Shown in pieces: positions 37,722 through 60,584 of a stretch of DNA of 64,000 nt. Where the stretch lies: assembly GCA_032622095.1 (NCBI GenBank), contig CP136067.1, positions 194,642,052 through 194,706,051 on the forward strand, given 5' to 3'. Position numbers and translations under genes: made by a program. Source of the DNA: Siphonodentalium dalli (lineage: Eukaryota > Mollusca > Scaphopoda > Gadilida > Siphonodentaliidae). Position 1 is the stretch's first letter; every line of letters starts with the position of its first letter. Under the pieces are notes generated by a model. That model was not told where the DNA came from. It ran no database searches and was given only the letters and a program-made list of their open reading frames with translations.

Positions 37722-37821
37722 NNNNNNNNNNNNNNNNNNNNNNNNNNNNNNNNNNNNNNNNNNNNNNNNNNNNNNNNNNNNNNNNNNNNNNNNNNNNNNN
37801 NNNNNNNNNNNNNNNNNNNNN
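37722..37821. other. Assembly gap (100 N)
   Basis: Exactly 100 N, the conventional placeholder for a gap of unknown size. The array enters it in mid-unit and a different sequence leaves it, so the true right end of the array and an unknown amount of sequence are missing. Confidence 0.99.
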
Positions 37822-37898
37822 GATTTTCTACTAGGTGAATACCTGTGCCCATGCTTCAAAAACAACTGCACAGTTTCCCATGTAGTAAAAACCTGTGC

Positions 37899-38405
37899 CA
37901 AGCTTAAATAATTCGCCCCCCCCCTGTGCCAAGCTTAACAATTCGCCCTCCCCCTGGCCAAGCTTAAACAATTCGCCCCCCCCCCCCCCCTTGTGCCAAG
38001 CTTAAACAATTCTCCCCCCCCCCCTGTGCCAAGCTTAAACAATTCGCCCCCCCTGGCCAAGCTTAAACAATTCGCCCCCTTGACCAAGCTTAAACAATTC
38101 CCCCCCCCCCTGTGCCAAGCTTAAACAATTCGCCCCCCCTGGCCAAGCTTAAAACAATCCCCCCCCCCCTGTGCCAAGCTTAAACAATTCGCCCCCCCCG
38201 GCCAAGCTTAAACAATTCGCCCCCCCTGGCCAAGCTTAAACAATTCGCCCCCCCCCCTGGCCAAGCTTAAACAATTCGCCCTCCCTGGCCAAGCTTAAAC
38301 AATTCGCCCCCCCCCCCTGGCCAAGCTTAAACAAACCCCCCCCCCCCCCTGGCCAAGCTTAAACAATCCCCCCCCCCCCCCCCCCCCCTGGCCAAGCTTA
38401 AACAA
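37899..38405. repeat. C-rich minisatellite with AAGCTT cores, 17 units
   Basis: Seventeen units of about 24-39 bp share the core CCAAGCTTAAACAATTC followed by a C run of 5 to 21 bases and TGG or TGTG. The longest run is C21 at 38,368-38,388. Length variation is almost entirely in the homopolymer. The minus strand is a regular series of G tracts, so G-quadruplex formation is plausible. Related single-copy sequence flanks it (TGTGCCAAGCTT near 37,897, TGTGCCAAGTT near 38,537), which suggests local origin. Glycine-rich short open frames here are translations of the G runs. Confidence 0.93.
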
Positions 38406-38943
38406 TTGTGCAGGAAATGAAGATGTACAAGTTCGGATTAAATTACGTATGTTACAAAAGCAAATAAATTCGAAATTGAATAAGGGGGATTCTTCCTCTA
38501 AAAATAGTGTACATTTTCCTATGGTGGTAAATATATGTGCCAAGTTAAAAAAGTGGGAAATGTGAGAATACAATAGGGACACATTTTAGCTGATTCCAGT
38601 ATTTTTTTAATTTTTATTTAGAAGAAAAGAATGACAAAGGAGGAAAACTTCTGAGATAAAATGCAGACACACATTCATTCTCTCAACCCACGGCTTGGAA
38701 GAGTGAAGCTCTTCCATGCCATGGCCCACTTTCTTACATGTGACATATAATTAGAAAATATTTAAAGGCACTCAATGTGTTCGGGTAATTTTAACAAAGA
38801 GTGTTCAGACTAAAAGTAAATTGACTCTATACCATGGTGTAATTTATTCTTTTGCTACAACAATGCTGATAAGAACAATAAATTAATATTTTTCTTCAGA
38901 ATGATTTTATAATTCACATTCAGCTACATTATTTATTTGATTA
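38406..38943. other. AT-rich non-coding stretch
   Basis: I looked on the minus strand for a next GPCR exon (phase 2, TM3 with Cys and a DRY-like motif) and found none. A small inverted repeat with GAAGAG/CTCTTC lies near 38,697-38,714. Nothing else is recognisable. Confidence 0.6.
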
Positions 38944-39352
38944 TATGTGACCCGCCATATCAAATCCAGTCGGGAGTAGGTCGCCTCGCATATATAAGAG
39001 AATGCATTGGCCTAACAATGTTTTACAATTTTAATAATTTGTTCTTGTATTCTTTAACAATTTTATAATTTCACCCATACAGAGCCCCAGACAAACATGA
39101 GCAGACGACACTCTTCTATATGCTTCTATATATGTGTGGGGCTCCCTGCAGGGTAATGGATGTTATTTTATTTCATGTCCTAAAAATTGTAAGAAACATT
39201 TATTTAAAAAACATGATAAAAAATTGTTAGGCCAATGCATTCTCTTATATATGCGAGGCGACCTATGGTCGACTCGCATATGTAAGAGAATGCATCGGCA
39301 CAGGGTAAAAAAATCCCGACTTACGACTGGATTTGATATGGCGGGTCACATA
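38944..39352. mobile_element. MITE family A, copy 1 (TA-type ends, twin-hairpin core, one hairpin half deleted)
   Basis: Terminal inverted repeats match perfectly over 29 bp: 38,944-38,972 begins TATGTGACCCGCC and 39,324-39,352 ends GGCGGGTCACATA. The left flank is TA; the right flank is TG, so the target duplication is imperfect or mutated. The core reads as the reverse complement of copy 2 at 44,944-45,381. The right hairpin is complete (39,232-39,298). At the left only the distal half survives (about 38,979-39,010), joined directly to the terminal repeat, indicating an internal deletion. No protein is encoded; a non-autonomous Tc1/mariner-like element is the best guess. It lies in intron 2 of the GPCR gene. 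Confidence 0.85.
39232..39298. repeat. 67-bp hairpin, right hairpin of MITE A copy 1
   Basis: Near-perfect palindrome with arms CCAATGCATTCTCTTATATA and its complement, closed by GGCGACCTATGGTCGA. One of seven complete copies in the window; two arm bases have diverged (CATATGTAAG, GCATCGG). Confidence 0.9.
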
Positions 39353-39508
39353 TGTAGTATTTAATGTTTGCATAATCAAAGTTCCAAACACTGCAGTTTT
39401 AAATATTTTACATTCTGAATTTACCACAAAAAATATAATTAGACAATTTAACCATATTTCAACTGTATTGTAAATATTGTAGTTATTGTAATTATTGGTT
39501 ATATATAC

Positions 39509-39671
39509 CTCTTAGTGAATGAAGCTACAGCTGCAAATGGAATCCCAATTACACTGTGTATGAGGTCGGCAACTATGACATTTAGGATGAATAGGTTAAT
39601 GTTTTGTCTGCACATGCGCGCCTTTATGAAGATAATCAGCATCAACCCATTTCCGATACATGCTATCACCA
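39509..39671 (-). CDS. Class A GPCR, exon 2 (end of TM1, loop 1, TM2)
   Basis: This 163-nt exon encodes residues 31-83 of a predicted class A G-protein-coupled receptor. The minus strand shows an acceptor TTATTTCTATTTTCAG ending at 39,672, then TG plus 53 codons plus AG, then a donor AG|GTATATA with GT at 39,508-39,507. The translation has the TM1 signature ACIGNGLMLIIFIK and the TM2 signature NLFILNVIVADL. Asn37 (position 1.50) and Asp65 (2.50) are 28 residues apart, as in rhodopsin and beta-adrenergic receptors. Loop 1 is basic (KARMCRQN). The exon starts in phase 1 and completes a Val codon with the last base of the exon at 52,130-52,217. It ends in phase 2; no following exon lies between here and the gap. 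Subfamily and ligand cannot be named. It could be a pseudogene remnant, but both splice sites and the frame are intact. Confidence 0.82.
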
Positions 39672-39904
39672 CTGAAAATAGAAATAATTTACACGTATAG
39701 GCGCGAGAGGGCTTCGACTTGCAATACTTGTTAGCTAGAAATTGACAACGTTAACCCTTTACCCAACAAAACGGCCAAAAACGGCCAAATAAAGCTTCAA
39801 CAGCCTAAAATATCTTCGGTCTGTCTCAATAGAACCATACAAATATGGATATCATTGGAACCGGCTCCTTGACCACATTGTGATAGTTACTGTTATGCCC
39901 AGTG

Positions 39905-39971
39905 CCAATGCATTCTCTTATATATGCGAGTCGACCATAGGTCGCCTCGCATATATAAGAGAATGCATTGG
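39905..39971. repeat. 67-bp hairpin, left hairpin of MITE B copy 1
   Basis: Arms CCAATGCATTCTCTTATATA and complement pair perfectly. The asymmetric centre, GAGTCGACCATAGGTCGCCTC, is in the opposite orientation to that of the right hairpin. Confidence 0.92.
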
Positions 39972-40052
39972 CCTAAAAAAAATCTTTTTTTAACACTTTT
40001 TACCATTTTTTCTTACATTCTTTAACAATTTTATAATATTTAATGTGTTAAG

Positions 40053-40119
40053 CCAATGCATTCTCTTATATATGCGAGGCGACCTATGGTCGACTCGCAT
40101 ATATAAGAGAATGCATTGG
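40053..40119. repeat. 67-bp hairpin, right hairpin of MITE B copy 1
   Basis: Exact-type inverted copy of the hairpin at 39,905-39,971; its centre reads GAGGCGACCTATGGTCGACTC. Confidence 0.92.
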
Positions 40120-40170
40120 CACAGGGCCGTTCTGTTAGGTAAAGGGTTAACCAATTAATTCTTGTTAAAT

Positions 40171-40276
40171 ATTCATTGACAGAGAATATTCCCTTAGGAA
40201 ATGTTCAGATAATAAAATCAACTTTGACCACAGGTCGTTTGTTGAACTTATTATCTGAACATTTCCACCAATGAAT
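40171..40276. repeat. Imperfect palindrome, ~106 bp
   Basis: The 19-bp arms GGAAATGTTCAGATAATAA (40,197-40,215) and TTATTATCTGAACATTTCC (40,248-40,266) are perfect complements. Outer arms ATTCATTG (40,171) and CAATGAAT (40,269) extend the fold. Probably the remains of a small foldback element. Confidence 0.8.
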
Positions 40277-41049
40277 AGGAATCATTCTGCTCTTGTATTA
40301 TCTATTGTTCTGTATGTCGTCTGCTTTTATTACATGAACACCCCTCCAAATAAATAATAAACTGTTCCAATTTATACATTTATAGCTATAAGGGAGAATC
40401 CATTCATATAGAAAGTGTTATTAAACGGTAATGAACTGCACGCGTTTGGGTGACTGAATGTCACGAAACTCTCCAAATCCAGTAAGGTTTAACGAATGAA
40501 GAACTAAATTTTGTTCCATGCATAATTGAGTAATCGGAGGATGTTAAATGCGGTTAGAGTGGGTACACACTTGTATGTAATTTCTGTAAGTAAAATGCAT
40601 GTAACTTACAGCGTTACCTCCGCAAGAGCACGATTGATCGTCCATAAATACGAGATTTGCTGGTTCAGTTCAAAGTTCAAAAGCTTTATTTATAAAGTCA
40701 GGCATATTAAATTACAAACATGAGAATTAAGCTCTTAACTGACTTGTAAAACAATGAATATGTACATAAACAGTAACGTGAATAAAATACAACCTATCTG
40801 AAAAATAAATTACATGTATATTAGCTAAAACATTGTAAAAGACGAATAAAATCACTAAGGACAGGTAAAATCACTGAGGACAGGTAGCCCTGACTCGAAC
40901 AAAGGCGTAAGACACAAACTTGTATATTCATATACGGCACAGTAATGTGCACAACGAGTCCATATTTCATGCCTGTATAACACGTTTTGTTCCATTCAGA
41001 GATACCAGACCAGAGAGTGAGGATTAAAATACAAAACATATACATATAA

Positions 41050-42404
41050 TTAGGATATCCTACAGGCACTGCATTTACATTTAAAACCATTCCAGGTTTC
41101 TAACATACATTCACAGTATTTCATCGTCTCTGCGGTTCTGCATGACTCTGGAAGAGAATTCCACACGTTAGGTGCCATGAATCTAAACGAGCTTAAACCG
41201 AAAGTAGTAGTATCAGGTGATGGCAGTTCCAGAGTCTCAGAATTTCTAAAAGAGTATGAACTATGTTTAAGTTTCACCAGGCAGTCCAAATAGGAAGGAG
41301 TGTTAATGTCCTTCTTTAGTATTTTGAAAACTGTAAGTGCCATAAGTCTGAGTCTTTGGAGATGTAGATGCTCACAGTTTGCAAGCTTTAGGAGAAAGTC
41401 ATAATCAGATGTGTAGTCATTATAGATAAAACGAAAGGCTCTCTCCTGAATTTTCTCAAACTTGTCGGTAGAAGACACACTGCAGAAATGCCAGGTAAGA
41501 GGGCAGTACTTAAAATTTGAGAGGATGAAAGATTTGAAGATACATTTTTTGCCTGAGATGGTCAGCATATGTCCAAGTCTCTTGAAGACATTTAGCTGCT
41601 TTGATGCCTTTGAACATAGCGAATCAATGTGAGTGTTAAACGTCAATTTACAGTCCAGAGTTATACCGAGTAATTTCACTTCCTCGATACATGGGATAAG
41701 ATGTGAAGCATTTATGCCAGTTATAGATTTACTTTTGGGACCCAATGATATTGCTTGGAACTTCTCTGGATTTGCCTTCATGCCATTCAGTGCGAACCAC
41801 TCAATGATATGAAGGCTATCAGATTCCAGAGTGCTCCGAACAACATCAGGGTCCTTGTGAGAGAAGGAAATTGTGTTATCGTCTGCATAATTATAAAGGG
41901 GGCAGTCCTTCACAAAGCCGAAAATGTCATTCAGAAAGATGTTAAACATGGTTGGGCCCAGTATGTATCCCTGTGTTACACCCTTGGTGATGCACCTCCA
42001 GGATCTCACACTGGAGCCAAGTTTAACGCAGTGTCTGCGACCAGAAAGATAGCTCCCCATATAAGATACCGACTTTTCACAAAGATTATATGCACGTAGT
42101 TTCTCTAACATAAGATCAAATGAGGTAGACAATCAAAAGCCTTTGAAAGGTCCATCATTACAGCGGCAACACGTTCATGCTTGTCAAGTGTCCTGCGCCA
42201 GTCTTCAATGGCACTTAACATTACGTCACTGCATCCACGATGCTTCCTAAAAGCTGAGAGAGCAGGGTTAAAAATAGAGTCAAAATGCATTTGTAGCTGT
42301 GAATTTATCGCTTTCTCAAATAATTTTGATATAGTAGGTAAAATACTAACAGGCCTGTAGTTTTCCTTACTCAAAATATAATTTTTCTTGTATATAGGTG
42401 TCAC
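41050..42404 (-). pseudogene. LINE reverse transcriptase domain and C-terminal region, broken
   Basis: Two frames give one enzyme. The first (42,404 to 42,105) has ENYRPVSILPTISKLFEKA, AFRKHRGCSDVML and MMDLSKAFDCLPH (the first catalytic Asp in AFD). The second (42,132 to 41,050) continues with LMLEKLRAYNL, GVTQGYILGPTMFNIF and the catalytic NYADDNT box at about 41,889-41,878, then KLLGITLD, SNFKYCPLTWHFCS, IQERAFRFIYNDYTSDYD and a PNVWNSLPES tail. The join near 42,118 needs a frameshift where CCTCATTTGATC replaces the expected LPHDL. An in-frame TAA at about 42,405-42,407 interrupts the region just upstream. The catalytic residues are intact, so loss of function is through frame breaks. Confidence 0.9.
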
Positions 42405-43370
42405 TTAAGCAACTTTAAGGCTATCTGGGAAGGCAACGACAGACAGAGAGTGGTTAAAAAGAATACTCAAAGGCACGTGGATTGCGAGTTACATATTTTC
42501 AGCATTTTTGCTGAGATACCATCAATGCCAGTAGCCTTTTTTGAGTTTAGCTTACATATCTCTTTGGAGAAGAACTCTTCAGAGATTGGTTTCAGGCTAA
42601 AAGTCTCAGGCGAAATACAGTTCTCTTTGATTTTGACGATGCTTGGATGTTCCTTATTTACAGGATGGTTCATGGGTATATTTGATGAAACGTCAATAAA
42701 AAATGAGTTGAAAATTTCACAGACACCATTTTCCAGTAATAATGTACTTGTTTTGGCTTTAAAGCCCTTATTTGTCAGAAATGGTTTGACAGTTGGCCCA
42801 AAATACAAAATCAGCAGATTTTGGGCCATCTGAACATTTGTCATTAAATTACGACTGGATGCTTTCCTTCTTGATACGTGTGACCAGATTTCTTTGTTTA
42901 CGGTAAAGTTCCCAATTTTTATGTGATCTGTATTTAAAAAAGCGTTTCTGTAAGAATCTTTTCTTATAGATAGCTTTTCTCAAAACCTTATTCATAAACG
43001 GGGCCGGGTTTTTATGTGGCCGCCTTGTTTTAACAGGGATGTGCTCATCAATAACATTAAGAAGAAGCCTTTCATGCATCCAGTATATATCATTGATATC
43101 ATCAAATCCATATGCTGCATGGAAAGGAATCTTCGTGATGTCCTCAATGAGCGCATCAGTTTTTAGAGATTTGAAACTCCTATAATTTATAGGATCTTTA
43201 CGAGGTAAAGCCACATGTGATTTCAGTTGAAAGGAGATTAAATTATGTACATCATTTATTCCCGTACAGAAGTTTAGATGATGGAAGCATAAATTTGCTT
43301 TGTTTGTCAGAATGACATCATTTAAAGTTGGATTTGCGTTTTTTTGTAAAACACGAAGGAGATTTAACAA
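42405..43370 (-). pseudogene. LINE endonuclease C-terminus and linker, broken
   Basis: The frame from 43,370 to 42,849 begins inside an exonuclease-endonuclease-phosphatase (EEP) fold: TLNDVILTNKAN is followed by INDVHNLISFQL, where the family usually has a Ser-Asp-His motif. A basic linker follows (KNPAPFMNKVLRKAIYKKR). A TAA at the end of RIKKESIQS interrupts it. The frame then resumes as FNDKCSDGPKSADF, shifts to PTVKPFLTNKG, and reaches KKATGIDGISAKMLK (42,844 to 42,467), the usual lead-in to the reverse transcriptase. Another frameshift lies near 42,475. The catalytic N-terminal part of the nuclease is missing. Confidence 0.82.
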
Positions 43371-43551
43371 TATTTTTCAGAGATAAAACCTTTAAAAGTT
43401 GTTATAAGAGATTGTAAAAAATAGACACCTTTCGCATAATGAACGACGACAGATAACTATTACGAACAGCTACTAACTTCTTGTAGCGTAATTTTTTTTG
43501 GACGGTCCAAAAACCTTTTCTCAGAATGGACGAATACGATTCCGTTTGTAG

Positions 43552-43935
43552 GACAATCGTGCTTTCCATTCGCTGTAAATGGAGACAATCGTGCTTTCCT
43601 TCGCAGTAAGGGGAGACAATCGTGCTTTCCATTCGCAGTGAAGGAAGACAATCGTGCTTTCCATTCGCAGTAAAGGGAGACAATCGTGCTTTCCATTCGC
43701 AGCGAAGGAAGACAATCGTGCTTTCCATTTGCAGTAAAGGGAGACAATCGTGCTTTCCATTCGCAGTGAAGGAAAACAATCGTGCTTTCTATTCGCAGTA
43801 AAGGGAGACAATCTTGCTTTCCATTCGTAGTAAAGGGAGACAATCGTGCTTTCCATTCGCAGTAAAGGGAGACAATTGTGCTTTCCATTCGCAGTACAGG
43901 GAGACAATCGTGCTATCCATTCGTAGTAAAGGGAT
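43552..43935. repeat. 32-bp minisatellite, ~12 units
   Basis: GACAATCGTGCTTTCCATTC recurs about every 32 bp (43,552, 43,584, 43,615, 43,647 and onward), with a variable tail such as GCAGTAAAGGGA or GCAGTGAAGGAA. All three minus-strand frames are open across much of it and give repetitive peptides, because the unit lacks stops; this is not evidence of a gene. Confidence 0.93.
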
Positions 43936-43990
43936 TATGGTTCTGCGCGCCGTGCGTATAAATCTTGTACATCACTATGTTGTTAATATG

Positions 43991-44088
43991 TCACAACATA
44001 GAGCTTTGTGTTTCGCAAGATCCTCGTGTTCCACGGCGACGAATTATTTTATTGCCACTTACAGATAAAACTGAAAACCACATGTCGA
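43991..44088. repeat. 98-bp direct repeat, copy 1
   Basis: Starts at TCACAACATAGAGC, contains CGCAAGATCCTCGTGTTCCA and ends CACATGTCGA. It matches 44,387-44,484 with a few substitutions and no obvious indel (offset 396 bp). Confidence 0.88.
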
Positions 44089-44116
44089 CTTGAAAAGTAT
44101 GTACGAAAGTAATTTG

Positions 44117-44207
44117 TTACAGCCTGATGATTTCTCGTCATCGAACATAGCATCCACAAAGCGTTCAATGTGTTCAGTCTCCAACTTGTTCAATAGCTCT
44201 TTCACTT
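44117..44207 (-). other. Duplicated segment with coding-like frame, copy 1
   Basis: This segment is about 93% identical to 47,148-47,243. On the minus strand it gives about 34 codons (VKELLNKLETEHIERF, then VDAMFDDEKSSGCNK). The other copy differs by five codons (two silent) and has no indel. A stop lies upstream in this copy and not in the other. I do not recognise the peptide. It could be a transposase fragment, a duplicated exon or chance. Confidence 0.45.
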
Positions 44208-44210
44208 GAA

Positions 44211-44370
44211 ATTTTCATCCGCAATTTTGTCCGGGACCGTCCGTTTGACGACGTTTTTCTGGGCCACAACTAATTGCACATCTCGAGAAGTAACAAACTT
44301 TAAAAATCGATATCTGATCGCTCTGAGCTTTGATGAGTGAAATAGTAATTTAGGAGCGTTAAATCGGATT
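44211..44370. mobile_element. MITE family C fragment, degraded
   Basis: Shares TTTTCATCCGCAATTTTG, GGACCGTCCGTTTGACG, TTTCTGGGCCACAA, ATCGATATCTGATC, CTGAGCTTTGATG and AGTAATTTAGGAGCGT with the copies at 58.5, 61.0 and 62.0 kb. Terminal repeats are eroded (AAATCGGATT remains at the right). Confidence 0.82.
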
Positions 44371-44386
44371 ATGCATCTTCAACAGG

Positions 44387-44484
44387 TCACAGCTTAGCGC
44401 TTTGTGATTCGCAAGATCCTCGTGTTCCACGGCGACGAATTATTTTATTGCAACTTACAGATAAAACTGAAGGCCACATGTCGA
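44387..44484. repeat. 98-bp direct repeat, copy 2
   Basis: Starts TCACAGCTTAGCGC and ends CACATGTCGA; matches 43,991-44,088. The two copies flank the family C fragment and the coding-like segment. Confidence 0.88.
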
Positions 44485-44649
44485 TCACAATTTAACCCTT
44501 TACCCAACAAAACGGCCAAAAACGCCCAAATAAAGCTTCAACAGCCTAAAATATCTTCGGTCTGTCTCAATAACACCATACAAATATGGATATCATTGGA
44601 ACCGGTTCATTGACCACATGCATTGTGATGGTTACAGTTATGCCCTGTG

Positions 44650-44716
44650 CCAATGCATTCTATTATATATGCGAGTCGACCATAGGTCTCCTCGCATATA
44701 TAAGAGAATGCATTGG
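44650..44716. repeat. 67-bp hairpin, left hairpin of MITE B copy 2
   Basis: Same palindrome as the others, here preceded by CCCTGTG; one arm carries CTATTATATA in place of CTCTTATATA and the centre reads CCATAGGTCTCCTC. Confidence 0.9.
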
Positions 44717-44781
44717 CCATTTTTTTCTTACAACAATTTTATAATTTTTTCTTACATTTTTATCATTTTTAATATGTTAAG

Positions 44782-44848
44782 CCAATGCATTCTCTTATAT
44801 ATGCGAGGCGACCTATGGTCGACTCGCATATATAAGAGAATGCATTGG
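44782..44848. repeat. 67-bp hairpin, right hairpin of MITE B copy 2
   Basis: Inverted copy of the left hairpin, followed by CACAGGG. Confidence 0.92.
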
Positions 44849-44997
44849 CACAGGGCCGTTCTGTTGGGTAAAGGGTTAAGGACATAATCTCAGAGTCATC
44901 TCCCACATTGAGGAGCTGAGAAACGATCGCAAACTTATTACTATATGTGACCGCCATATCAAATCCAGTCGTAAGTCGGGATTGTTTTTACCCTGTG

Positions 44998-45064
44998 CCA
45001 ATGCATTCTCTTATATATGCGAGTCGACCATAGGTCGCCTCGTATATATAAGAGAATGCATTGG
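44998..45064. repeat. 67-bp hairpin, left hairpin of MITE A copy 2
   Basis: Same palindrome as in family B, with one arm change (CTCGTATATA). Confidence 0.9.
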
Positions 45065-45259
45065 TCTAACAATTTTTTATCATTTTTTTTTAAATAAATG
45101 TTTCTTGCAGTTTTTAGGAAATAAAATAAAAAACATCCATTACCCTGCAGGGAGCCCCACACATATAGAAGCATATAGAAGAGTGTCGTCTGCTCATGTT
45201 TGTCTGGGGCTCTGTATGGGTGAAATTATAAAATTGTTAAAGAATACAAGAAATTTAGG

Positions 45260-45326
45260 CCAATGCATTCTCTTATATATGCGAGGCGACTTATGGTCGA
45301 CTCGCATATAAAAGAGAATGCATTGG
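45260..45326. repeat. 67-bp hairpin, right hairpin of MITE A copy 2
   Basis: Inverted copy; centre GGCGACTTATGGTCGA and one arm change (CATATAAAAG). Confidence 0.9.
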
Positions 45327-45382
45327 CACAGGGTAAAAAAAATCACGACTTACGACTGGATTTGATATGGCGGGTCACATAT

Positions 45383-45904
45383 AATGTATTTTTGAGTTTT
45401 TTGAAAATCCAAAACGGTAATCGTAACAACGGATAGGGAAACACGACAAACGAATTGAAAGAACACAAATTCTAGTGACGTTGTACCCTATTCATATACT
45501 TGTATGTTGTCGTTCATTATGCGAAAGATGTCTACTGACTGCCAGTCAGTCATTATGACAGGTCTTCTCTTACACATTATACAGACACATAATATAATAT
45601 GAATGTATTTGTTATTTTATTAATGTATGCGCATCACAAGAGTCATTTTGAAAGGAGGTTGTGAGCGAGACAAATGTGAATAAATAAATTAAATTACATG
45701 AAAACACATTACATTAATATATAACTATTTATATAATAATAACATTCACATTGACAGCTAAAATTATTAATGCATACGTAATACGTACAATAATTCAATC
45801 ATATAGCGTGAATTCCAATCATAAAACCACCATAGTGTCGGGAAAATCTGATACATCTTCCCATTATGTAATAACATTCACGTTATATTATGTGTTGTAT
45901 AAAC
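45383..45904. other. AT-rich stretch, no gene
   Basis: Contains the right end of the TA-flanked element, a TGACTGCCAGTCAGTCA near-palindrome at about 45,536-45,552, and ancestral pieces of the neighbouring 43-bp satellite (for example ACATTAATATATAACTATTT near 45,711). No coding feature seen. Confidence 0.6.
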
Positions 45905-46346
45905 ACATTACATTAATATATAACTATTTATATACATAATAACATTCACGTTACATTAATATATAACTATTTATATACATAATAACATTCACGTTACATT
46001 AATATATAACTATTTATATACATAATAACATTCACGTTACATTAATATATAACTATTTATATACATAATAACATTCACGTTACATTAATATATAACTATT
46101 TATATACATAATAACATTCACGTTACATTAATATATAACTATTTATATACATAATAACATTCACGTTACATTAATATATAACTATTTATATACATAATAA
46201 CATTCACGTTACATTAATATATAACTATTTATATACATAATAACATTCACGTTACATTAATATATAACTATTTATATACATAATAACATTCACGTTACAT
46301 TAATATATAACTATTTATATACATAATAACATTCACGTTACATTAT
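45905..46346. repeat. 43-bp AT-rich satellite, ~10 units
   Basis: CATTCACGTTACATTAATAT recurs exactly every 43 bp at 45,943, 45,986, 46,029, 46,072, 46,115, 46,158, 46,201, 46,244 and 46,287; the last unit at 46,330 leads into ATTATGTGTTGTAT. Units look identical, so the expansion is recent. The motif CACGTTATATTATGTGTTGTAT also sits just before the array (about 45,881), so both borders resemble each other. Confidence 0.95.
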
Positions 46347-46633
46347 GTGTTGTATATTGTCGCACTTATAAACATGAGTGTCTCTTCTAATCTCAGCTGA
46401 ATGTTTCTCTTTTGATGAAGAATTTACGTCTCGGATCATGTCGCATATTATATTGATATTTTCCTTTCTCACATTAACTCATTATGAATAAAAAGTTACC
46501 AAATGGAGGCTGTTTGTGTCTTCCTTGTTTATGACTACTCACCCTTAATCTAGTAAAACTCAACCTTGCTGAATTATAGAAATTTTACGTGTGTGATTAT
46601 ATATTGATGAGTTTACTCTAATAATATATGGTA

Positions 46634-46669
<36 letters not shown>
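46634..46669. repeat. (CT)n microsatellite
   Basis: CT dinucleotide run interrupted once by TTT. Confidence 0.95.
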
Positions 46670-47147
46670 CTTGTTCTCTCTAAAACAACATTATGTAGTA
46701 TAAAACGATGGAGTCGGAAAAATAAGTTATCTGAAGTTTTCCCATTATACCAGAAATTGTATTGATATTATGATTATACCAGCAAAATGTGTTGCCCATA
46801 TCCAATAATAAAGTGGATCAATATGCTTGTTATTGAAAATTATCAATAATAACTCTGTCGTGATGGAATGAAAATTGGTCATCTCCAAATTTTATTAATA
46901 ATTACTTGTAAGTCGAAGTTATATACTAATACTTAAAGTGGAGAGAATCCACTTTTGTTTTGTAACCTCGTAACAATTGTTATCCATTTGAATATGTATA
47001 TATTATCTATTTCAATGTATACCCCGCCTGTTATATTATGTATTATATCTCAAACACTGTTTTTACAGTTTAATGGGAAATAAATATATTGTATATTGTA
47101 TTGCTTCGGCAAATCTACACCCCAGTAGATATGGTTCTAATTTATAA
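46670..47147. other. AT-rich stretch, possible LINE 3' tail
   Basis: ACCCCGCCTGTTATATTATG and then AATAAATATATTGTATATTGTATTG (about 47,080-47,104) resemble the 3' end of a non-LTR element on the plus strand, but no coding part precedes it. Confidence 0.3.
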
Positions 47148-47243
47148 TTTGTTACAGCCTGAAGATTTCTTGTCATCGAACATAGCATCACCAAAGCGTT
47201 CAATATGTTCAGTCTCCAACTTGTTCAATGGCTCTTTCACTTG
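47148..47243 (-). other. Duplicated segment with coding-like frame, copy 2
   Basis: Matches 44,117-44,207. The minus-strand frame stays open further upstream here (TGKSNEF before QVKEPLNKLETEHIERF). Unidentified. Confidence 0.45.
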
Positions 47244-47375
47244 AAATTCATTCGATTTACCTGTGCATGTTAGAAATGTCTATCTCGTAATTTAGTAATA
47301 AAGATTTCCAACCCGGCGTAGAAGTAATCGCTTGATCTTCAACATAGCAATATAATAATCTACCATGTTCCGTCT

Positions 47376-47642
47376 TCAATATTTTTTCATATATCTGAAC
47401 ATACGAATCATTGCGTAATGTATGACTGGAAGTCTCCGGAGTTCTGCTCGCGGTGTGTGATTCGAAGTCTTTCGGTTAACGCCCAATATATTTTTTGCAA
47501 AATTTAGGTTTAGTTGTTCAAAAGATAAGTTATAACTGCGTGGATTTGCTAAATGTCCGGCCCAAATTTCACTTCCATATAACATGATAGGCTTGATTAA
47601 TTTATCAAATAATTTACATTCCGTTGGTATAGATAATTGCAT
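47376..47642 (-). pseudogene. LINE reverse transcriptase C-terminal fragment
   Basis: The minus-strand frame gives KLFDKLIKPIMLYGSEIWAG, NLNFAKNILGVNRKTSN and AELRRLPVIHYAMIRM. These match the conserved region after the polymerase domain of RTE/Jockey-type LINEs (LIKPILLYGSEIW, KFCKxILGV, GELGRxPL). It is short and isolated, and the rest of the enzyme is about 1 kb upstream, so intervening sequence is deleted or replaced. Same orientation as, and possibly the same element as, the fragment at 48,662-49,076. Confidence 0.85.
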
Positions 47643-48661
47643 TTTTGACCCAAGAGACTGAGTTTAAAAAAGACATAGCTTTTGATGCCTTCCCACTTAG
47701 ATGACCTTGACATTTCAAGGCTTATGTGGTACTCTGGACTTCAATACGTTTCAATCCACAACTCACCTCAGTCCAATTTTCGTTGATCAATAGGCATGAC
47801 ATGGAAATTCTCAAATATAGAGACTTATGTACGGGTATTTGCCTTTATAAATACGAATTAAGAATAATTTAGTTTGCTCTCGTGATCTTGAGATATGATA
47901 GCATGGATATATGGACTGCAATTTTGAAACAAAAATATTTGACAAATTATTAGTACCTGAAAAAAGTGAAATTTTAAATAGCTTTCATGCCATACAATTA
48001 AAGTAAATGAGGTTATAATACCCTATGGGTCGATGGCTCTTAAATATTGGAATTTTGACAAACTTCTCTTAACGAGAGTGACAATTCAATTGGCGATTTC
48101 TGGTTTATGGTATATTACGTGAACCATAAGCTGTAGTCTCGACATACTGTATAACAAGTTGTTGTTTACTTAATTCAGGTTATTTATCAATAATCTGAAC
48201 ATATCCAAGAAAAGTCAATATGTGTATCAAACATTCAGAAACATATATTTACTCGGAGAAGAAAAGCGACGAGTCCTCTGGTTGATAACTTTAATAAGTA
48301 TGAACAACTATATATAACAGCATGGTAGTATCGCGGATAGAACAACGTGGATTTGGGAAACTATCTGGTTGATGGAAAATCTGCTGTACTGTACTGGTCC
48401 GGAGATTAAATTGCTACTGTGTTGGCAAGGAGCCAACTCATTAGCAAGGAACCGAAACTTAATACAATTATACTGAATTAATTATAGATTAAATCTAGAG
48501 TACTAATTGGTACTAGTAGATTAAATCTACGATACTTTAAGGTACAATATAGTCCCCACTTATAACCATAACGGCATGAGATGCAGCCATAAGGCATGAA
48601 AGATTAGTAAACATTAATCTGGTAACAATACTAAAGTTCCGTGCAAATCCATCAGGTAAAG
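47643..48661. other. Non-coding stretch between LINE fragments
   Basis: No family recognised. Short local repeats occur, such as TAGATTAAATCTA pairs near 48,485-48,532. It probably contains degraded LINE sequence or an insertion. Confidence 0.4.
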
Positions 48662-49076
48662 TCACGAACAGGTGTAGCTTCGTGGGAACAGGTAAGTTCG
48701 TGGGAACAGGTAACGAACAGATAACTTCGTTACACTTACCGCGGTGGATGAAATGTTTAGCCCGAGGTATGTATATTCGTTCACCAACTCCAAATTTATG
48801 CAACCAACACTGAAGTTTGGTGATGATTTGGATTTCCGTGATTGGAACAGCATGCAATTCGTTTTACCCGTATTAACTGTCAGATAATAGCACTGGCATA
48901 GCTGTCAGTTTAGATAAGCATTTCTGAAGACCTCCTTCATATTCTGATAGCAACACAAGATTGTCAGCAAAGAGGTGATGATTAAGAGAACGATTATTAA
49001 TTTGAGTCGGTTTACAGGATTCGTCAAAAAATTTTCTTATATCATCAATATATATATTGAATAGCATAGGCGACAT
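48662..49076 (-). pseudogene. LINE reverse transcriptase palm fragment, catalytic Asp lost
   Basis: The minus-strand frame from 49,076 begins MSPMLFNIYIDDI and has HHLFADNLVLLSEYEGGLQK. Active relatives have FADD here; one catalytic aspartate is replaced by Asn. After a frameshift near 48,880 it continues VNTGKTNCMLFQSRKSKSS and VNEYTYLGLNISST, the usual primer-grip side of the domain. Homology starts abruptly at about 49,075 and ends near 48,720 in a short repeat (GTTCCCACGAA twice). Confidence 0.85.
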
Positions 49077-49230
49077 CCTTTATGTTCACAACTTTCCCAA
49101 CATCAAGCGAATAATCTCTAGTTTCGAGTATATTCCTCTCACCAACGTCACCTACTAGAACCACTCCGTCGAGAGGAATGATCTCTGAGTTTACTGACAT
49201 CTCGTTGTTATCTCCAGTAACCAAGTCCAA

Positions 49231-50103
49231 CTGATTATATTAGTTATATCGTGCCATTCAAATCCTAGGCGCGACAATAGGATAGATATAATTTCGGTTC
49301 CGGGAGAAAGCCGTTTTTGCGACGATAAGTTACGTCGCCTTATATCATATGAAAACATAAGATATCGAATAAACTATTGACCATGAATAAATAAATCGAT
49401 GGTATAGAGGGACATGAGCTAATCAATCCCATGCGTTTTAGGTGGTAAGTATATAAACATGACCCCCGTGATACCACTCTTCCAGACCAAAAGTCGAATT
49501 TTTGGACTGAAATTTCCAACCACAATCACGACGCACTGTGCTGACGCATTTTATCAGTTGGAAACATTGAAGTACAACTTGGAAAATGCTAACATGAGGG
49601 ATGTTAATGATATTTCCCAGAGTTTATTTTAGGTCTGTGTAAACAACCACACGGAATACGCTCCGTGTGTGGCTGAAATGATCCGCAACTGACCTGGATA
49701 TGAAAACTCATTTATTGACGGAATATTATTCTGAACATTTTGGAGGTGGAACTAATGAACCAGCTTTCAATGCGAGCTACATAATTATCGCAAGGTTTGA
49801 ACTGTAAATTTGTGAATATATTTTTAATGTTGTCAAGCTCCTTGGAACCTCGGTGATATATGCGCTAAACAGAATAGAATAGAATAGAATAACATTATTT
49901 GCCAATCATAGGCGCCTTCACAGTATACCAAATAAAAAACAGTTATGATTTCGATGATTGAGAGTTAAGTAACTTGTACAATGATTTCGATGATAGAGAG
50001 TTAAGTACGACTTGTACAATTGGAAACAATAATAAAATGGGACATAGACATCACAATTTCAGTGTAATACGGAACAATGTACGGTATAATAACATATAGA
50101 GGA
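49231..50103. other. Non-coding stretch with short repeats
   Basis: Holds a GAATA pentamer run at 49,871-49,891 (about four units) and a tandem duplication of ATGATTTCGATGATTGAGAG (49,945-49,980 and 49,981-50,018). No gene seen. Confidence 0.7.
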
Positions 50104-50241
50104 TCTCACATGAGTTTCTATTTTATACGGAATTTATCAACCAGTTCACTAAATTCGATTTGAGCCGAGGTTTACCGAGGCTCAAATAGAATTTAGAGGA
50201 CGAGGTTGATAAATTACGTATAAAATAGGACGAGTGTGAGA
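50104..50241. repeat. ~138-bp palindrome (foldback)
   Basis: TCTCACATGAG and CTATTTTATACG at the left pair with CGTATAAAATAGGACGAG and TGTGAGA at the right. The inner arms TTATCAACC/GGTTGATAA and TTTGAGCC/GGCTCAAA close on a short centre near 50,172. Mismatches indicate some age. Confidence 0.85.
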
Positions 50242-50599
50242 TACCTTTTATCACATGATCAAATAAACCCGAAGCAACGCGAAATATTCATCGAAAACAA
50301 CAATCATAAACTACATCGATCGCAAGTTATTTGAAGAACGCCGTGACGTCATCGCACGCGCTGATATTAAACGTGTCTATTACCGATAATTATGAAACTG
50401 CTTTTATGGCCAAATTATGTGATAAATATATTTATGAGGAAACAATTTATAAAATAATAAAGGTTTGCAGCATGTGTATGCCAAGGTAATGTTTTTTATT
50501 CAAACTTTGCTTGCTGGAGTGTCAGTCAGAATTAGGGACCTACCTCATTACGGAGGTGTCATCGGAGCTCATGAACCATATGAACTTATTGCTATCATC

Positions 50600-51206
50600 T
50601 CATACCTTGATATTGGGATATTTATTTATTATTTGATTCAAAAGAGGCTTCCGCACATTCTCCAGCATTGGACATTTCATCATGAAGTGTTGCTCGTCTC
50701 CAACTTCTAGTTTGCATAATTCGCACAATTTTTTATCTGCTTCAATACCTAAATATCTACCCTTCTCGATTTCCAAGCTGTGTGAACTAGCCCTAAAACG
50801 AGCTAGCACCTGCCTCTCGATGTCATTGCCCCAGGTAGGGCTCTGGGCCAAATTGTGTCTTAAACCTAAAAGTTCTTAATTTGTTTTTCTGACCTTTTTT
50901 ACTTCTATACATTAGTTTGGTCAGAGCTTTTGAACTCTCCGTGTGCTTTACTACATATTTGTCCTTATTGTTCATCTCCAGAAATTCAAGCAATGTAGTT
51001 ACAAATCCTACCCACGATTTTTTACCATTTTTCGCTAGTTCTGATGATTGATTGTAGGCACATTTAAGAAGAAGATCACCAGTCCTCTTAACAGTCTGGT
51101 AGTATTTAATCATATTGTGGTCTTTGTGGAGTACGGTCAGCATAAGTGGATATATGCCGGTATCTCCCATAGCTGCCAGGTTTATGATTTTTGTCTCTGA
51201 GTCCAA
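50600..51206 (-). pseudogene. LINE C-terminal domain fragment with CCHC-like zinc motif
   Basis: Two overlapping minus-strand frames join by a frameshift near 50,840. The first (51,206 to 50,823) gives GDTGIYPLMLTV, MIKYYQTVKRT and LRTFRFKTQFGPEPYLG. The second (50,851 to 50,600) gives NDIERQVLARFRASSHSLEI, EKGRYLG and CELCKLEVGDEQHFMMKCP, a C-x2-C-x8-H-x4-C motif. This order is typical of the far C-terminus of RTE/Jockey-type LINE polyproteins. It overlaps in content with the end of the 47.4-kb fragment (GELGRYPL region), so it is a different copy. No polymerase domain remains. Confidence 0.82.
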
Positions 51207-52129
51207 GAAAATATTTGCACATCTTCACTTGTATTCGTTCTGGCTTGAAGAAATGTGTGATATGATATCACATGAAATTTCAGCTTAAATTACGGTCATT
51301 TTGCTCTGGACAACATCGGAAATTATGCGCATCAACTAGCGGTGAAATAATACCTGGTTGAGTAGTTTTGCTATAATGTTACGATATTTGTTTTTCTCAA
51401 GTTGTCATTTTCGCGGATTTTACTAAATCTGAATGAATCGAGGAAAAGCAATTATCTGCATAAAACATTCATGCAAGAACATACATATTGTAAAATATTT
51501 TAATAATGGCTGTTCTAGTTGTTGTAAACCAACCATAACCAAGATGGATACTCGGGTCGTTTTGCAAACACCAGCGCAGCCATGATTAAAATATATGTTC
51601 ATACAGACACTCAGGCTCGCTTTTTTTCATCAAATTTCTCTGATTAAACAAACACCGTGGAAACAACAACTTAACGGTAGTTTTTCTCAACACCAACATT
51701 TTGCCACGCCTAACACCATGTCAGTATGGCCCACCAATGTTGAATTGAATTATGCTTTAATCTCAGCCATTTTTACATGGAACATGAGCGATGGTTAACT
51801 ATTTACACTATTTACACATATAGAACATTATATATAATGATCACAATAAACTAGATGTTGTAAACATACAAGATACATTTTACAAATTGAAACAAACAAA
51901 CACGCATCATTAGCATACACTAAACATATACAAAACACGCACAATAAAGCTACAAACAAACAAACAATATTTGCATTTATTACGAACCTTATTCATCATT
52001 CATGATTGTGTCATTTCCACTAAAAAGATTTCAACCCGAGTTTTATAAAGATTGCCAAATTGTTTAATATGTCAGGGTTGGTCACATACCAAACTAGCGG
52101 GACCACATAGCCGGTGGAAATATACTTAC
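51207..52129. other. 5' part of GPCR intron 1, no other feature
   Basis: AT-rich sequence with A-rich strings (AAACAAACAAAC) near 51,890-51,966. No repeat family or exon recognised. Confidence 0.55.
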
Positions 52130-52217
52130 CAACAATGAGAAAATACGACCCGTATAACCAGAATGCCCAGTCGGAGGGTGCATTGTAATCGTGCAATATT
52201 CCTGTCTTATTCTCCAT
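52130..52217 (-). CDS. Class A GPCR, exon 1 (start codon, N-terminus, first half of TM1)
   Basis: The minus-strand exon starts at an ATG (52,217-52,215) in good initiation context (AAAATGG) with an in-frame TGA a few codons upstream. It encodes 29 residues plus one base: a short extracellular N-terminus with one N-glycosylation sequon (Asn3-Lys-Thr), then the hydrophobic WAFWLYGSYFLIV. It ends at a consensus donor, GTTG|GTAAGTATA. Reading through the donor gives a stop about 35 codons later, so the unspliced frame is a decoy. Joined to the exon at 39,509-39,671 it gives FLIVVVIACIGNGLMLIIF, a complete TM1. There is no signal peptide, usual for class A receptors. Promoter and any 5' untranslated exons were not located. 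Confidence 0.78.
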
Positions 52218-54344
52218 TTTATAACGTCTAATTCATCTCATTTCATGTTAATAACACATTTTTTCAGTGCGACAGAATATACCAACCATGCATTGCGAAT
52301 CGTACTTTGATCTGTAATGATTGGGAGGGCTATCCCAGAAACACCTGCCCGCGTGCGAGCTGATGTCGTGACATGTTATCCGGGATGATAACATGGATTA
52401 ATTGGGATCTACGTGTGTAGCTACCCCAATCGGATCTGTCGGATCTATCGACTAATTAATTACACATCACCACTGTCACTGAATCTAATGCCTTCTTGTT
52501 TTTGTCACCACGTACTTCCCTTGTATAGAATATAATCTGAATGATCATTTCTTTCAGCAATGGGTTTTTAGTATATGCGTCATTGGACCGTTTGCGACTA
52601 GCATGCAGAGTTATCGTCGATGGCCGGGATTACCTCCCCTGAGTAGTAGATATAGTATAGCGAGTTTGCGATTTCAAACCGGTACGACTGGTAATGTATG
52701 GTGAGCCAACTGCAACAAAAAAGATATTATGATATAGATAGATTGTTATTCGCTTTATTGGCCGATGTTATACCAACCATGGATTGTTGGAAATTGTTAT
52801 TTACATTAGATGGGCCTCCGGGTAATCAGTTGCTTTCACCAATGACGGGGCGGCAGTTGGATTGGATTCTACAAGTCATAGACCGATCGAGTGTTAACTA
52901 TAAATCGGTTGGAATTTTCAGACTTAGAAAATAGATTATGATAGCTCAGTTATACAATTACGTTATAGTGAAATTTTCCAACCAATATTCGGTGTAAAAT
53001 GTATCATTTTAGACCCAGGGTCTAATAAAGTCCTGCATGTACTTTCAGTCATAAAAAAGTCCGAATTTGTCCCTTATTTTCGTTGGGGAATATTTAGTCA
53101 TATTAAGTGAACATTGGTTTGGAATCTTTCAACAGATCGAAGGGTCGGGGCAAGGGAGTAGGTTGAAAAGTTAAACTTGGTAACGATCAAAAGTGTTAAA
53201 ATGTAGTCTGTGTGTTATACGGATTTAATAAAGAGCGTTTGCTTCACTTATGTGCGAAACACAGAAAACAGCTGAAACTCGATCTGATTATGCTTAGATT
53301 TTGTGAGTATGTATAGATATTTCGTGTCTTTAGCGACCTATATTATCCCCACTACAATATACACCAGCATTGTGGTTCAAATACGCCATGTCCTTTCAGA
53401 TGGTAAATATATATTAAAATGAGAAATCAGTCCCCATCTACATACGATAAAGTAACTAACCGGTTGTATTCAAATGTGCAATACATGGATACATTCACGA
53501 GATATATTGATGCTATTGTACAAATGGTTGAGACAGGGACGTGACGACAGATGTGTATCACCCCCCCCCCCCCAACTTTTGTCAAATGTTCAAAATTTAC
53601 ACCTGACACAACATTTGTTGGAAATTTCACACCAGCAATAGGTTGAAATTGTTCCCCTAGTCTGATTTTCCAACAATTTATTAGTGGATCATTTGTAGTT
53701 TTAAGACCAACATTTGCATATTTTCCTATTTTTGGTGAAACATTTGGACTGAAATGGTTTGTGTAGATAATCGATTGAGTGCATCATTTACAGACAGGTC
53801 ACAAATACAAAGTATACGGACATTTTAATCAGAATTTGCTAAACATATACATGTAAGAGTTTTTCAAACACATTTAATTGTCAAATATAGTATGTCAAGT
53901 GGAATTCTCACAGCAAAATTGCGTTTAATTGAATTTAATTCTATAATTCCAGCTTGTGATTTTTTTTTATCCGGGTGGGGGATGCAAATTGTGGACAAAG
54001 TTACTTCACAAGCTTGGAATGGATTGGGACCAAAAATTAACCAGTGATCCTGTTATTACGTCGATCGCTTGCCAGGCATTTTCTCTTCTCCTCCACCACC
54101 TTTGTTATCGCGACGATTAATGAATCTGTCGCCTTCAGATAGGATGAACACGGCCGTATAAATATCCTATTTGACAGCGACCCAATTATTCCGCTGGTTC
54201 GCCGCCAAGCAAGAAATCGACGAAGCATAACATCACTGCTGTGATCGCCTCGTGGTCAGCGCTTCAGTCGCCTGCGGTGTGAATATAAAAAGAATATACC
54301 TGTACCCATCGGACGGGTATAGCAAACTCGCTATATATTCTCAA
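52218..54344. other. Upstream flank of the GPCR gene, mostly featureless
   Basis: Would contain the receptor's 5' untranslated region and promoter; I could not place either. A plus-strand open frame of 78 codons at 52,698-52,934 is unassigned. A partial family F repeat end (AATAAAGAGCGTTTG) lies at 53,227, and a C15 run near 53,560. Confidence 0.5.
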
Positions 54345-54689
54345 CAGTACCAACGATACCGAATGATAAGACTCAATCTGATGTCTTTAAAATATCGAAC
54401 ATTTAGAGGAGATCTAATCGAGGTATATAAACTGTTGAATTGCCATTACAATATCAATGCCTGTGACCTATTAGAAAGACATTCATCAGGAAGAACAAGA
54501 GGACATAATAAAATGCTACAGATGCCCATTGTTAACAAGGCCATAGGAAAATATTTCTTCACGCAGAGGGTGGTAAATAGCTGGAACTCTCTGCCAGACT
54601 TCGCTGTTGAGGCTCCAACACTCAATCAATTCAAAATATACATAGACTCATTCTTCTATTATATAAAATACCAGTCCGACGACAAGTAA
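54345..54689 (+). pseudogene. LINE reverse transcriptase C-terminal tail
   Basis: The plus-strand frame carries IRLNLMSLKYRTFRGDLIEV, YKLLNCHYN, HSSGRTRGHNKMLQ and FFTQRVVNSWNSLPDFAVEA, and ends at TAA 54,687-54,689. This is the extreme C-terminus of CR1/Jockey-like LINE proteins (RxRGDLIExYK, RVVNxWNSLP, LNxFKxxLD). Nothing of the polymerase lies upstream, so this is a strongly 5'-truncated insertion, and it points opposite to the other LINE fragments. It is a different subfamily from the element at 40.7-43.4 kb: its C-terminal motifs are not alike in detail. Confidence 0.88.
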
Positions 54690-56554: not shown

Positions 56555-56901
56555 TTAAAGGGCTACTGTACACGAAATTCGGCCATTTATGGGACCATCT
56601 CCTTTTATAATCGACAGAATATATGAAACAAATGAATGAATTTGAGCCATGGATTAGTGCAAAATACACTCATTTACTTTCTGAACGATGCAAACAACAT
56701 GGTAATTATAATGAAAATGAATTTATGAGTGGAGTCATAAATTCATTTTCATTATAAGTACCATGTTGTTTGCATCGTTCACAGAGCGCACAAAGGTATT
56801 TTGCACTAATCCATGGCTCAAATTAATTCATTTTTGCATATATTCTGTTGAGTATCAAATGAGATGCTCACATAAATGACCGGATTTAGTGTACAGTTTA
56901 A
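56555..56901. mobile_element. Foldback element E, 347-bp near-complete palindrome in TTAA
   Basis: TTAA occurs at both ends (56,555-56,558 and 56,898-56,901). The whole length folds on itself around a 6-bp spacer at 56,729-56,734. Innermost arms are perfect over 21 bp (ATAATGAAAATGAATTTATG and complement, one more base each side). Outer arms match with scattered differences, for example TGAGCCATGGATTAGTGCAA/TTGCACTAATCCATGGCTCA and CTGTACAC/GTGTACAG. No coding capacity. A TTAA-targeting non-autonomous element is likely, though its ends (AGGGCTACTGTACAC) differ from family B. Confidence 0.88.
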
Positions 56902-57035
56902 AATTGACATAGCCTCCGTCACTAAAACGTCGCACGTCATGCACATCGTGGACACATTTCTTCAAGTCATCGAATCTATCGTCCCAGTATTTGTGTTAGT
57001 ATGAAACAATAAAGAGCGTTAAGTGTTAGTTTGTA

Positions 57036-57399
57036 AATAAAGAGCGTTTGTCTCACTTTTGTACGGAAAAAGGAAAATATCTGAGCTATGACTTTGGCAA
57101 CGTTTTTCATGGTATGTAAACAGTTTATTTCGTGCAAAGCCTATTTTCGACCGACATACACGTACATGCATATATATGTAGTATCCCTCCTTCAAAATAC
57201 GTATACCCATAATTTTGAGGTTCTATTGAGCCATGTCTATTTAACTTCGACTGGATATATTACAAATACTAGCTCATATAACCATTCCTCGTATACTCTG
57301 AAAAACTAAACAATTATTGAACAAATATACCATAAATCTGATTTTTTTTATTTTCGAATTTCCACATAATTCATACAGTCAATCAAACGCTCTTTATTT
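57036..57399. mobile_element. Family F short inverted-repeat element
   Basis: AATAAAGAGCGTTTG at the left (to 57,050) is the exact complement of CAAACGCTCTTTATT at the right (57,384-57,398), about 364 bp apart. TA lies near both ends. Related left-end sequence recurs at 53,227 and a partial copy of the end just upstream (57,007). Confidence 0.65.
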
Positions 57400-58331
57400 T
57401 ACCATATCAAGATATAATGTATTAGTGAACGCTTTTTATGTCCACATGTTGTACATTTAAGTGGAAGTCATTTTTTGGAGTATAAATATTAGGAATGCGA
57501 ACAGAGTGCAAGTCCATGGCTTAAATAGAGCTGCCGCTTTTATAAGAGGTGTGGAGTATATTTATGAATTTTGTTTTTCTTTCTAAGACGATAATATGTA
57601 TATATGTCTTTCCACGGGCAAGGTGCATATAGACAGTCCGCAGTCGGGTGTTAGCAAATCTCGTCTCTATCGGCGTGTTACTACATGTATATAACATTCC
57701 CCGTTTAAAGTGAAAGAACTATCATATATAGCTTTAAAGACATATTATATACTTGTTCGGGTGCGTGAAACTGAAAAGTTAGTGTTCAGACGCTATGCCA
57801 ACTGGAGGAATGTAACATTCTACTAACATCGCCGAAAATCTGAAGTAAATCAACCGTACCACTCCATAGAAAACATCGTCTGAACAACGCTCAATTGTAA
57901 ATATTTACATCGCGATTCGAGACGTAACAATCGTCAATAAACTAACACATTTCGCCATCGAGAATCATTGCATGTAATTAATATATAAGAATCACTGTGT
58001 GTGTTATCAATTTGGATTTATATTCGTAAAAAGTAACTACTTTGAGCAAGTTTATTCTAATTTCTATTTGAGAACCCTATCGGTGTGTTTCACATCACTT
58101 TAATTGTTGCGGCTTTTTATTAGACATGTTTGTCGTTTTATTATATTAATATTGACAATAAAACAATAAAATCGTGCTGCAGTTTTTGATGAAACATCTC
58201 TTTGTTGAAGTTACTTCAAGAAAAACGCAAGCGGCGATGACTCCTTTGCTTAGAAGAGAGCTCGACATACCTACTAGTCAAGGGAATAATACGGTTCATC
58301 GACGATAACTCTGCTAGTCGTACATCGTCCA
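57400..58331. other. Non-coding stretch, nothing recognised
   Basis: AT-rich; no repeat family, exon-like frame or RNA gene seen. Confidence 0.5.
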
Positions 58332-58761
58332 TTAAAGGTACTCAATCCGATCAGATGGTCCCCATATCATCAAGCTACAACAACAACATTTCTTCAAAAT
58401 ACGCTGTAGTTATCAGAATCGATTAACTGCAACAAAATAATGCTAACCACTGTCAACTATGGTATCAAATTTCCCAAAACGTGTTATTTATCAGCAATTT
58501 GTTCAACGAAATATGGCCGTCATATTCAGTATTCACGAAATTTGGCCGTATTACCACTTGTTTTTAGAGTTATCCATCTTAATCCGCAATTTTGACCGAG
58601 ACCATCCATTTGACGGCGTGTTTCTGGGCCACAAACAATTGAAATTATAAACTTCAAAATGGATATCTGATCACTCTGAGCTTTGAATGGTAGGTTCCTC
58701 GACTCGAATCAAATATTATTTACCCCCGAAGCCAAAGAAATAGTAATTTAGGAGCGTCTGA
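58332..58761. mobile_element. MITE family C, copy with left terminus
   Basis: The left end TTAAAGGTACTCAATCCGAT (58,332) matches the intact copy at 62,009. The right portion (TTTAGAGTTATCC onward, GATATCTGATCACTCTGAGC, CCCCCGAAGCCAAAGAAATA, TTTAGGAGCGTCTGA) runs to 58,761, where the terminal ~20 bp diverge. The middle (58,356-58,565) is not shared. Confidence 0.82.
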
Positions 58762-60584
58762 GCCCACAACATTATTCTGCCAAATACTCACACGATTGGA
58801 TAGCGAAAGATACTTAATTCGATGACGATTGATAGTAAAACGCCACGCGAGGTTAGGATTGAGGCCTGGATTATTGAAGTAATAACGGAGATGTTTGAAG
58901 AAGTGCTTTTAAAGAGCGCAGCGTAGCTTGTTTATGTCGCCATTTTACCATGCGGTCGGTCCTGTCCACCCGCTCATTGGCTGCATCGATTGCGTGACAG
59001 CTTAACCCATTGTCAATTTAATAGACTGTCAGCACCCCGTTGCTGTTCCACCCGTTGATTGAACACAACTTACCGACACTCAGCTCCTTTTGCGATATCA
59101 ATAAATCAATTAATCAACCAACCATTCAATTAATTTATGTATATGTATATCTGAGTAGATACATGGCCATGGATATGGCAAATAGACATACAGGGAGTGA
59201 TTGAATGGCCAATGGTGATGCAAATATGTATACAAGAAGTGACTGTATGATTTAAAATGAAATTGTCGTGCCGCATAAGGTACATGGACAACCAGAATAG
59301 AACATTTAGTCGTCAGTTGATTAAGTAACATGTTTTGTAAACAAGTGAATCACAATGTGCTACCTTTACAGAAGAGCAGAGAATAACATCCGGGATATAT
59401 TTGAAAATATCAACTTCTACCAAATTGTGTGGACATTTGGAAGCCAGCTTGAGAATAATTTCCTAAAATCACATCAGTGTGACGCAGTTAAGACGGATCA
59501 AAACAGAAGCACCAAAGATTGTTCCATATTACTTGAATAAATGGAAAAACATGAACAGTAATTTTTTGACGATTTTGAGAGAACATTCCAATAATTTTGG
59601 TTATGTTATAGTAACACTTATCCAAAATGCATCATAAATGTTGGTATTCAATGTATATACGACAGAACAGCCAATTTTATTCACCATCCACAACTTTTAA
59701 GCGATTGCTCGGCACGCTGGCAAAATATCTTCCATTTTTCCATAATTTTGACAGCCATTTTTTGGCAAAGTGACAATATTGGTTCCATTGAGTTGAAATA
59801 TGCATGAGTAATGGTGTGCCTTACTTACTTTGCATAGTTCTGCTCATTTCTTGTTGAAATATGACCATAATCCCAATTGTGATTTTTTATGAAACTTCAT
59901 ACCGCGTTCTGTAAAATCGAATTATTGATTGGAATGGGCTGGGATAACAAGAATGGCATATTTGATTGCTCCAGTGATCAATTAACATGAACAATACAAA
60001 AATAAAGTCACATTTATGAACCAGTTCCTTGCAGAAGAAACTGATCTAGAAGATATTAATGAAAACACGTCAAATTTTCCACCCTCTTACGGCTGCCATT
60101 TTGATGGCCGTGTTTGACGGGGAGTTCCAATTGCGCCCTAAAGATGTGCCATTATATCTCGCAGAGTCATACTTACTGTATATGCCTAATTTTAAATCGC
60201 AGATTCCATGGTAAGATTGTGACAATTAATAAATTATATTTAAATTCAGATAAACCCTTTTAAGGAGGTTAAAGTGAAATTTCAGCGTGGCTACACATCG
60301 AATATCAATTAGTATGTGAATATGTACATATATGAACAATTTCGTGCTTTTGTCACGAAGTGAATTTTTTTTTACTAATCTACTCCACTATTCGATTTGA
60401 TATAGCAATCGAATCGTTTTCATCACAGTTCCCAAACTGCCATCTATGTTGAACGGTGCTCATTATATATCGTTGCCTGGGAATAATGAAATTACCATTT
60501 TCAAATTACGTTGTGTTATCAACCACTTTATGTTAACTGAATGTTAAATTCAGTTTCTATGTTGTTTCCGGATTATTTATGACC
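58762..60584. other. Non-coding stretch, nothing recognised
   Basis: No convincing exon, RNA or repeat. The 58.8-59.1 kb portion is less AT-rich than its surroundings (ACCCGCTCATTGGCTGCATC) and could hold a promoter, but no gene follows. Confidence 0.45.

Follow-up and report, generated by a model that had tools for sequence, protein, structure and literature searches.

A candidate class A receptor gene of Siphonodentalium dalli, split within TM1 by a 12.5-kb intron

Do two short open frames lying 12.5 kb apart on the minus strand of a molluscan contig belong to one receptor gene, and if so, to what kind of receptor and with what remainder? The question was addressed in a 64,000-nucleotide stretch of the Siphonodentalium dalli assembly (GCA_032622095.1, contig CP136067.1, positions 194,642,052 to 194,706,051), here called the window and numbered from its first base. 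The two frames are probably coding exons 1 and 2 of an ordinary multi-exon gene for a class A (rhodopsin-like) GPCR.

Exon 1 (52130-52217, minus strand, 88 nt) begins with an ATG at 52217 that is preceded by an in-frame stop and stands in the context AAAATGG. It comprises 29 codons and one further base and is predicted to encode the extracellular N-terminus and the first half of TM1. Intron 1 (39672-52129, minus strand) is a GT-AG intron of 12,458 nt in phase 1, with the donor GTAAGT starting at 52129 and the acceptor TATTTTCAG ending at 39672, where pyrimidines occupy 14 of the 20 bases preceding the AG. Exon 2 (39509-39671, minus strand, 163 nt) encodes the rest of TM1, the GN motif, intracellular loop 1 and TM2, and ends in phase 2 at GTATAT (GAG/GTATAT, from 39508), which is the sole GT towards the close of the open frame that would give exon 2 this length. 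No other copy of either exon was found within the window. Joining the 88 and 163 nt gives 83 whole, stop-free codons, and the peptide reads in the order N-terminus, TM1, GN, loop and TM2. The first-pass annotation had placed a phase-1 donor at 52,129 and a phase-1 acceptor at 39,672, and both positions were correct to the base. Its description of a continuous TM1 followed by GN and, 28 residues on, by the TM2 Asp was likewise reproduced in the joined translation, the two residues being N37 and D65. The label "cryptic" is overstated, as nearly every multi-exon animal gene escapes ORF-only annotation and splice-aware, homology-based annotation could presumably find this one.

Family membership was assessed by profile and sequence searches. 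Exon 2 alone matched the Pfam 7tm_1 profile at E 5.7e-6 (26.4 bits). The search of the joined 83 residues against the same profile, which had been proposed along with the exon model, produced a match at E 2.4e-5 whose 24.4 bits, like the score of exon 2, lie below the gathering cut-off of 30.5 bits; since only the first 46 of the 260 profile positions are covered, a full score is impossible. Ten control peptides made from exon 2 (one reversed and nine shuffled, five of them keeping the hydrophobic pattern) were submitted to Pfam, and none matched 7tm_1; a single peptide hit an unrelated family (E 0.063). Among PDB sequences searched with phmmer, cephalopod rhodopsin was the best match of the joined peptide (E 8.5e-6, 29.2 bits), in an alignment that spans the exon junction, followed by the NK2 receptor (E 2.0e-5) and then by other class A receptors. 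Exon 2 without exon 1 matched cephalopod rhodopsin at E 5.7e-5 (26.3 bits), and the NK2 receptor was absent among the best 60 PDB matches listed for it. An NCBIfam search gave nothing relevant. Pattern searches for relatives of exon 2 returned 36 matches in viral and 276 in prokaryote contigs, none of which was confirmed, as expected for an animal gene. Together with the splice-like sites, the 7tm_1 and PDB matches support a coding sequence for TM1-TM2 that resembles those of class A receptors and is interrupted by a phase-1 intron.

The spacing from Asn to Asp had been offered as strong evidence for a receptor, and this was not borne out. Translation of 37822-64000 in six frames contains GN-27-D a single time; of 200 dinucleotide shuffles of that region, 64 held it at least once in an open frame (mean 0.4 per region), so that the spacing alone is weak evidence and is just what chance hydrophobic frames unrelated to receptors could supply. 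None of 200 shuffles contained a fuller TM1-TM2 pattern, which had been selected post hoc from the sequence. The family match is much the stronger support, and the 7tm_1 and PDB matches, taken with the negative shuffled controls, speak against such chance frames, a disfavoured explanation that we regard as most improbable. An alternative confined to exon 1 holds that exon 2 is a genuine receptor exon, that the frame of exon 1 is open merely by chance and that the true first exon lies elsewhere. Exon 1 by itself has no Pfam match, being too short, and its addition costs 2 bits against 7tm_1 (26.4 to 24.4), both of which agree with this alternative; against it, the addition raises the cephalopod rhodopsin score from 26.3 to 29.2 bits and improves the score against the NK2 receptor. 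For a wider comparison, exon 2 was joined to every phase-1 GT end in 39672-64000 that closes an open frame of 13 codons or more, 661 in all. Measured against the NK2 receptor stretch, exon 1 brought the largest gain of the 661 (+32, the runner-up reaching +21), and it also ranked first by summed gain against the NK2 receptor and squid rhodopsin; against squid rhodopsin alone its gain of +8 fell outside the best 8 of 661 (best, +14), which is a point in favour of a chance frame. When donors were scanned with an approximate weight matrix, that of exon 1 was 10th of 236 and, with the same matrix, the strongest of the 15 that follow a frame with a hydrophobic end; the start context is also clean. 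A chance exon 1 is rather unlikely. Exon 1 itself is likely, not proven, and less certain than exon 2.

The seven helices of class A receptors include a TM3 with (D/E)RY and a TM7 with NPxxY, and the exons for TM3-TM7 were to be sought to the left of exon 2, as the first-pass annotation had advised. In the 1.7 kb downstream of exon 2 (37822-39508), a phmmer search of the three minus-strand frames against PDB at E up to 1 returned 0, 1 and 6 matches per frame, none to a receptor, and no TM3-TM7 with these motifs was found there. As a positive control, exon 2 was re-found by phmmer within its flanks (cephalopod rhodopsin, E 1.3e-4). Pfam searches of long frame translations, with stops written as X, gave only reverse transcriptase and sub-threshold matches; because positive controls in which exon 2 was embedded in translations of 500 or 1,111 aa also gave no 7tm_1 match, the absence of receptor exons was not argued from these searches. 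Rfam and ARAGORN gave 0 hits each on 37500-64000. Leftward of these 1.7 kb lie an assembly gap of 100 N (37722-37821) and, on its far side, a 37.7-kb satellite array (1-37721) of about 686 copies of a 55-bp unit with 95% matches. Assemblies often use exactly 100 N for a gap of unknown size, so the true distance from exon 2 to the array is not fixed by the assembly. A satellite 22-mer had 0 exact matches in viral and prokaryote collections. Adjoining the gap at 37892-38379 is a minisatellite of 16 copies of about 28 bp, G-rich on the minus strand. With no match in 1.7 kb and then the gap and satellite, TM3-TM7 may be unassembled, outside the window or lost. Loss would make the locus a receptor pseudogene or gene fragment, in which the TM1-TM2 exons remain and those downstream were removed by rearrangement or satellite growth. 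The missing match, the gap with the satellite beyond it and the many repeats nearby all fit such a fragment, but there is no damage to the start codon, to either splice site or to any of the 83 codons, and the absent part coincides with the assembly gap; we give it a small but appreciable chance. Improbable, in our view, is a divergent opsin-like gene that is intact and expressed and whose intron 2 contains the gap together with all 37.7 kb of the array, in which case the transcript would have to run through satellite sequence of great length and homogeneity.

Other features of the window were recorded on the upstream side. An open frame at 56821-56961 (minus strand, as for the exons), 4.6 kb upstream of exon 1, resembles TM7 of class A receptors (N-x-x-L-N-P-V-I-Y). 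Of the 46 PDB sequences that matched it at E 10 or better, 43 are receptors (best E 0.21), it had no Pfam match, and the TM7-like motif appeared in 9 of 200 shuffles. It was rejected as part of the candidate receptor gene because it lies 5' of exon 1; it may instead mark where an adjacent receptor gene ends, or be a relic or a chance frame. A phmmer search of 56700-60402 against PDB returned 0, 0 and 1 matches and no receptor, a weak negative given that it missed the TM7-like fragment itself. On the plus strand, a 152-aa frame at 54231-54689 resembles the 3' end of a non-LTR retroelement, and local tblastn related it to the reverse-transcriptase ORF of intron 1 at E 0.11 only.

The intron between the two exons had been described as transposon-filled. 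By hand-listed intervals, one of them six bases short, roughly 5,384 of its 12,458 bases (43%) belong to repeats, to arrays or to reverse-transcriptase frames, and the description holds in part. The intron contains a broken retroelement (41050-43376, minus strand) with reverse transcriptase in two frames and an ORF upstream. Pfam placed RVT_1 at about 42389-42111 (E 4.5e-14) and, in a different frame, at about 42108-41659 (E 9.4e-13), and we read the ORF as suggesting an element of non-LTR type. Two tandem arrays, one of a 32-bp and one of a 43-bp unit, are also present. A short palindromic repeat has eight listed copies in 38915-45328, on both sides of exon 2; two copies at 38940-39355 sit inside an element that, by eye, has apparent long terminal inverted repeats and is MITE-like. 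A 24-mer from a repeat had 0 matches in viral contigs. Long introns bearing repeats are common in animal genes. Gene type, introns and retroelement together point to an animal.

If the ordinary multi-exon class A receptor gene that we favour is expressed, its product would arise as follows. Splicing out the 12.5-kb phase-1 intron would join the two halves of TM1, and from the phase-2 donor that follows TM2 splicing would continue to exons for TM3-TM7 beyond the gap or outside the window. The completed seven-helix bundle would be expected to respond to a ligand, or in the case of an opsin to retinal and light, and to signal to a G protein.

The hallmark of opsins, the retinal-binding lysine, is in TM7, and the two exons at hand permit comparison over TM1-TM2. 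Squid rhodopsin (PDB 4ww3/2ziy/2z73) was the best-scoring solved relative. It aligns from the N-terminus through TM2 with a single one-residue gap, the TM2 of the candidate being one residue shorter; 20 of 68 aligned residues are identical, and its N-to-D spacing is 28, as in the candidate. The next-best solved relatives in TM1-TM2 were class A peptide receptors (NK2, NPY2, endothelin B and galanin), which score below squid rhodopsin. Scores were also expressed as z against the shuffled query, with reference stretches that were in part approximate. On these partly approximate references, squid rhodopsin (15.5), OPN5 (14.7) and OPN4 (14.0) stood highest, followed by NK2 (12.2), NPY2 (11.6) and peropsin (11.4), then by A2A, rhodopsin, MT1 and ADRB2 at 9.2 to 7.4, with RGR lowest at 3.9. 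An OPN5-type opsin, its letters approximate and serving as a lead only, scored 86 (z 14.7) versus 103 (z 15.5) for squid rhodopsin, and has G-x-P-F late in TM2, as far from the TM2 Asp as in the candidate; peropsin (RRH, letters approximate) equalled OPN5 at 86, and RGR scored 41. This ranking is a mild lead towards opsins and not a test. TM1-TM2 do not settle the subfamily; an opsin-like or peptide-receptor-like identity is favoured, and the candidate receptor is perhaps opsin-like. Many opsin groups have conserved, group-specific intron positions and phases (PMC5648526, where the positions are shown in figures).

The candidate gene is ordinary biology, with nothing unusual about it, and it leaves ideas on receptors or introns unchanged. 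It would gain importance only if it turned out to belong to an unusual opsin group or if its transcript really ran through the satellite array. If the reading is right, an animal genome gains one more receptor gene model, and the locus would serve as a small reminder that receptor genes split within TM1 escape ORF-only reading.
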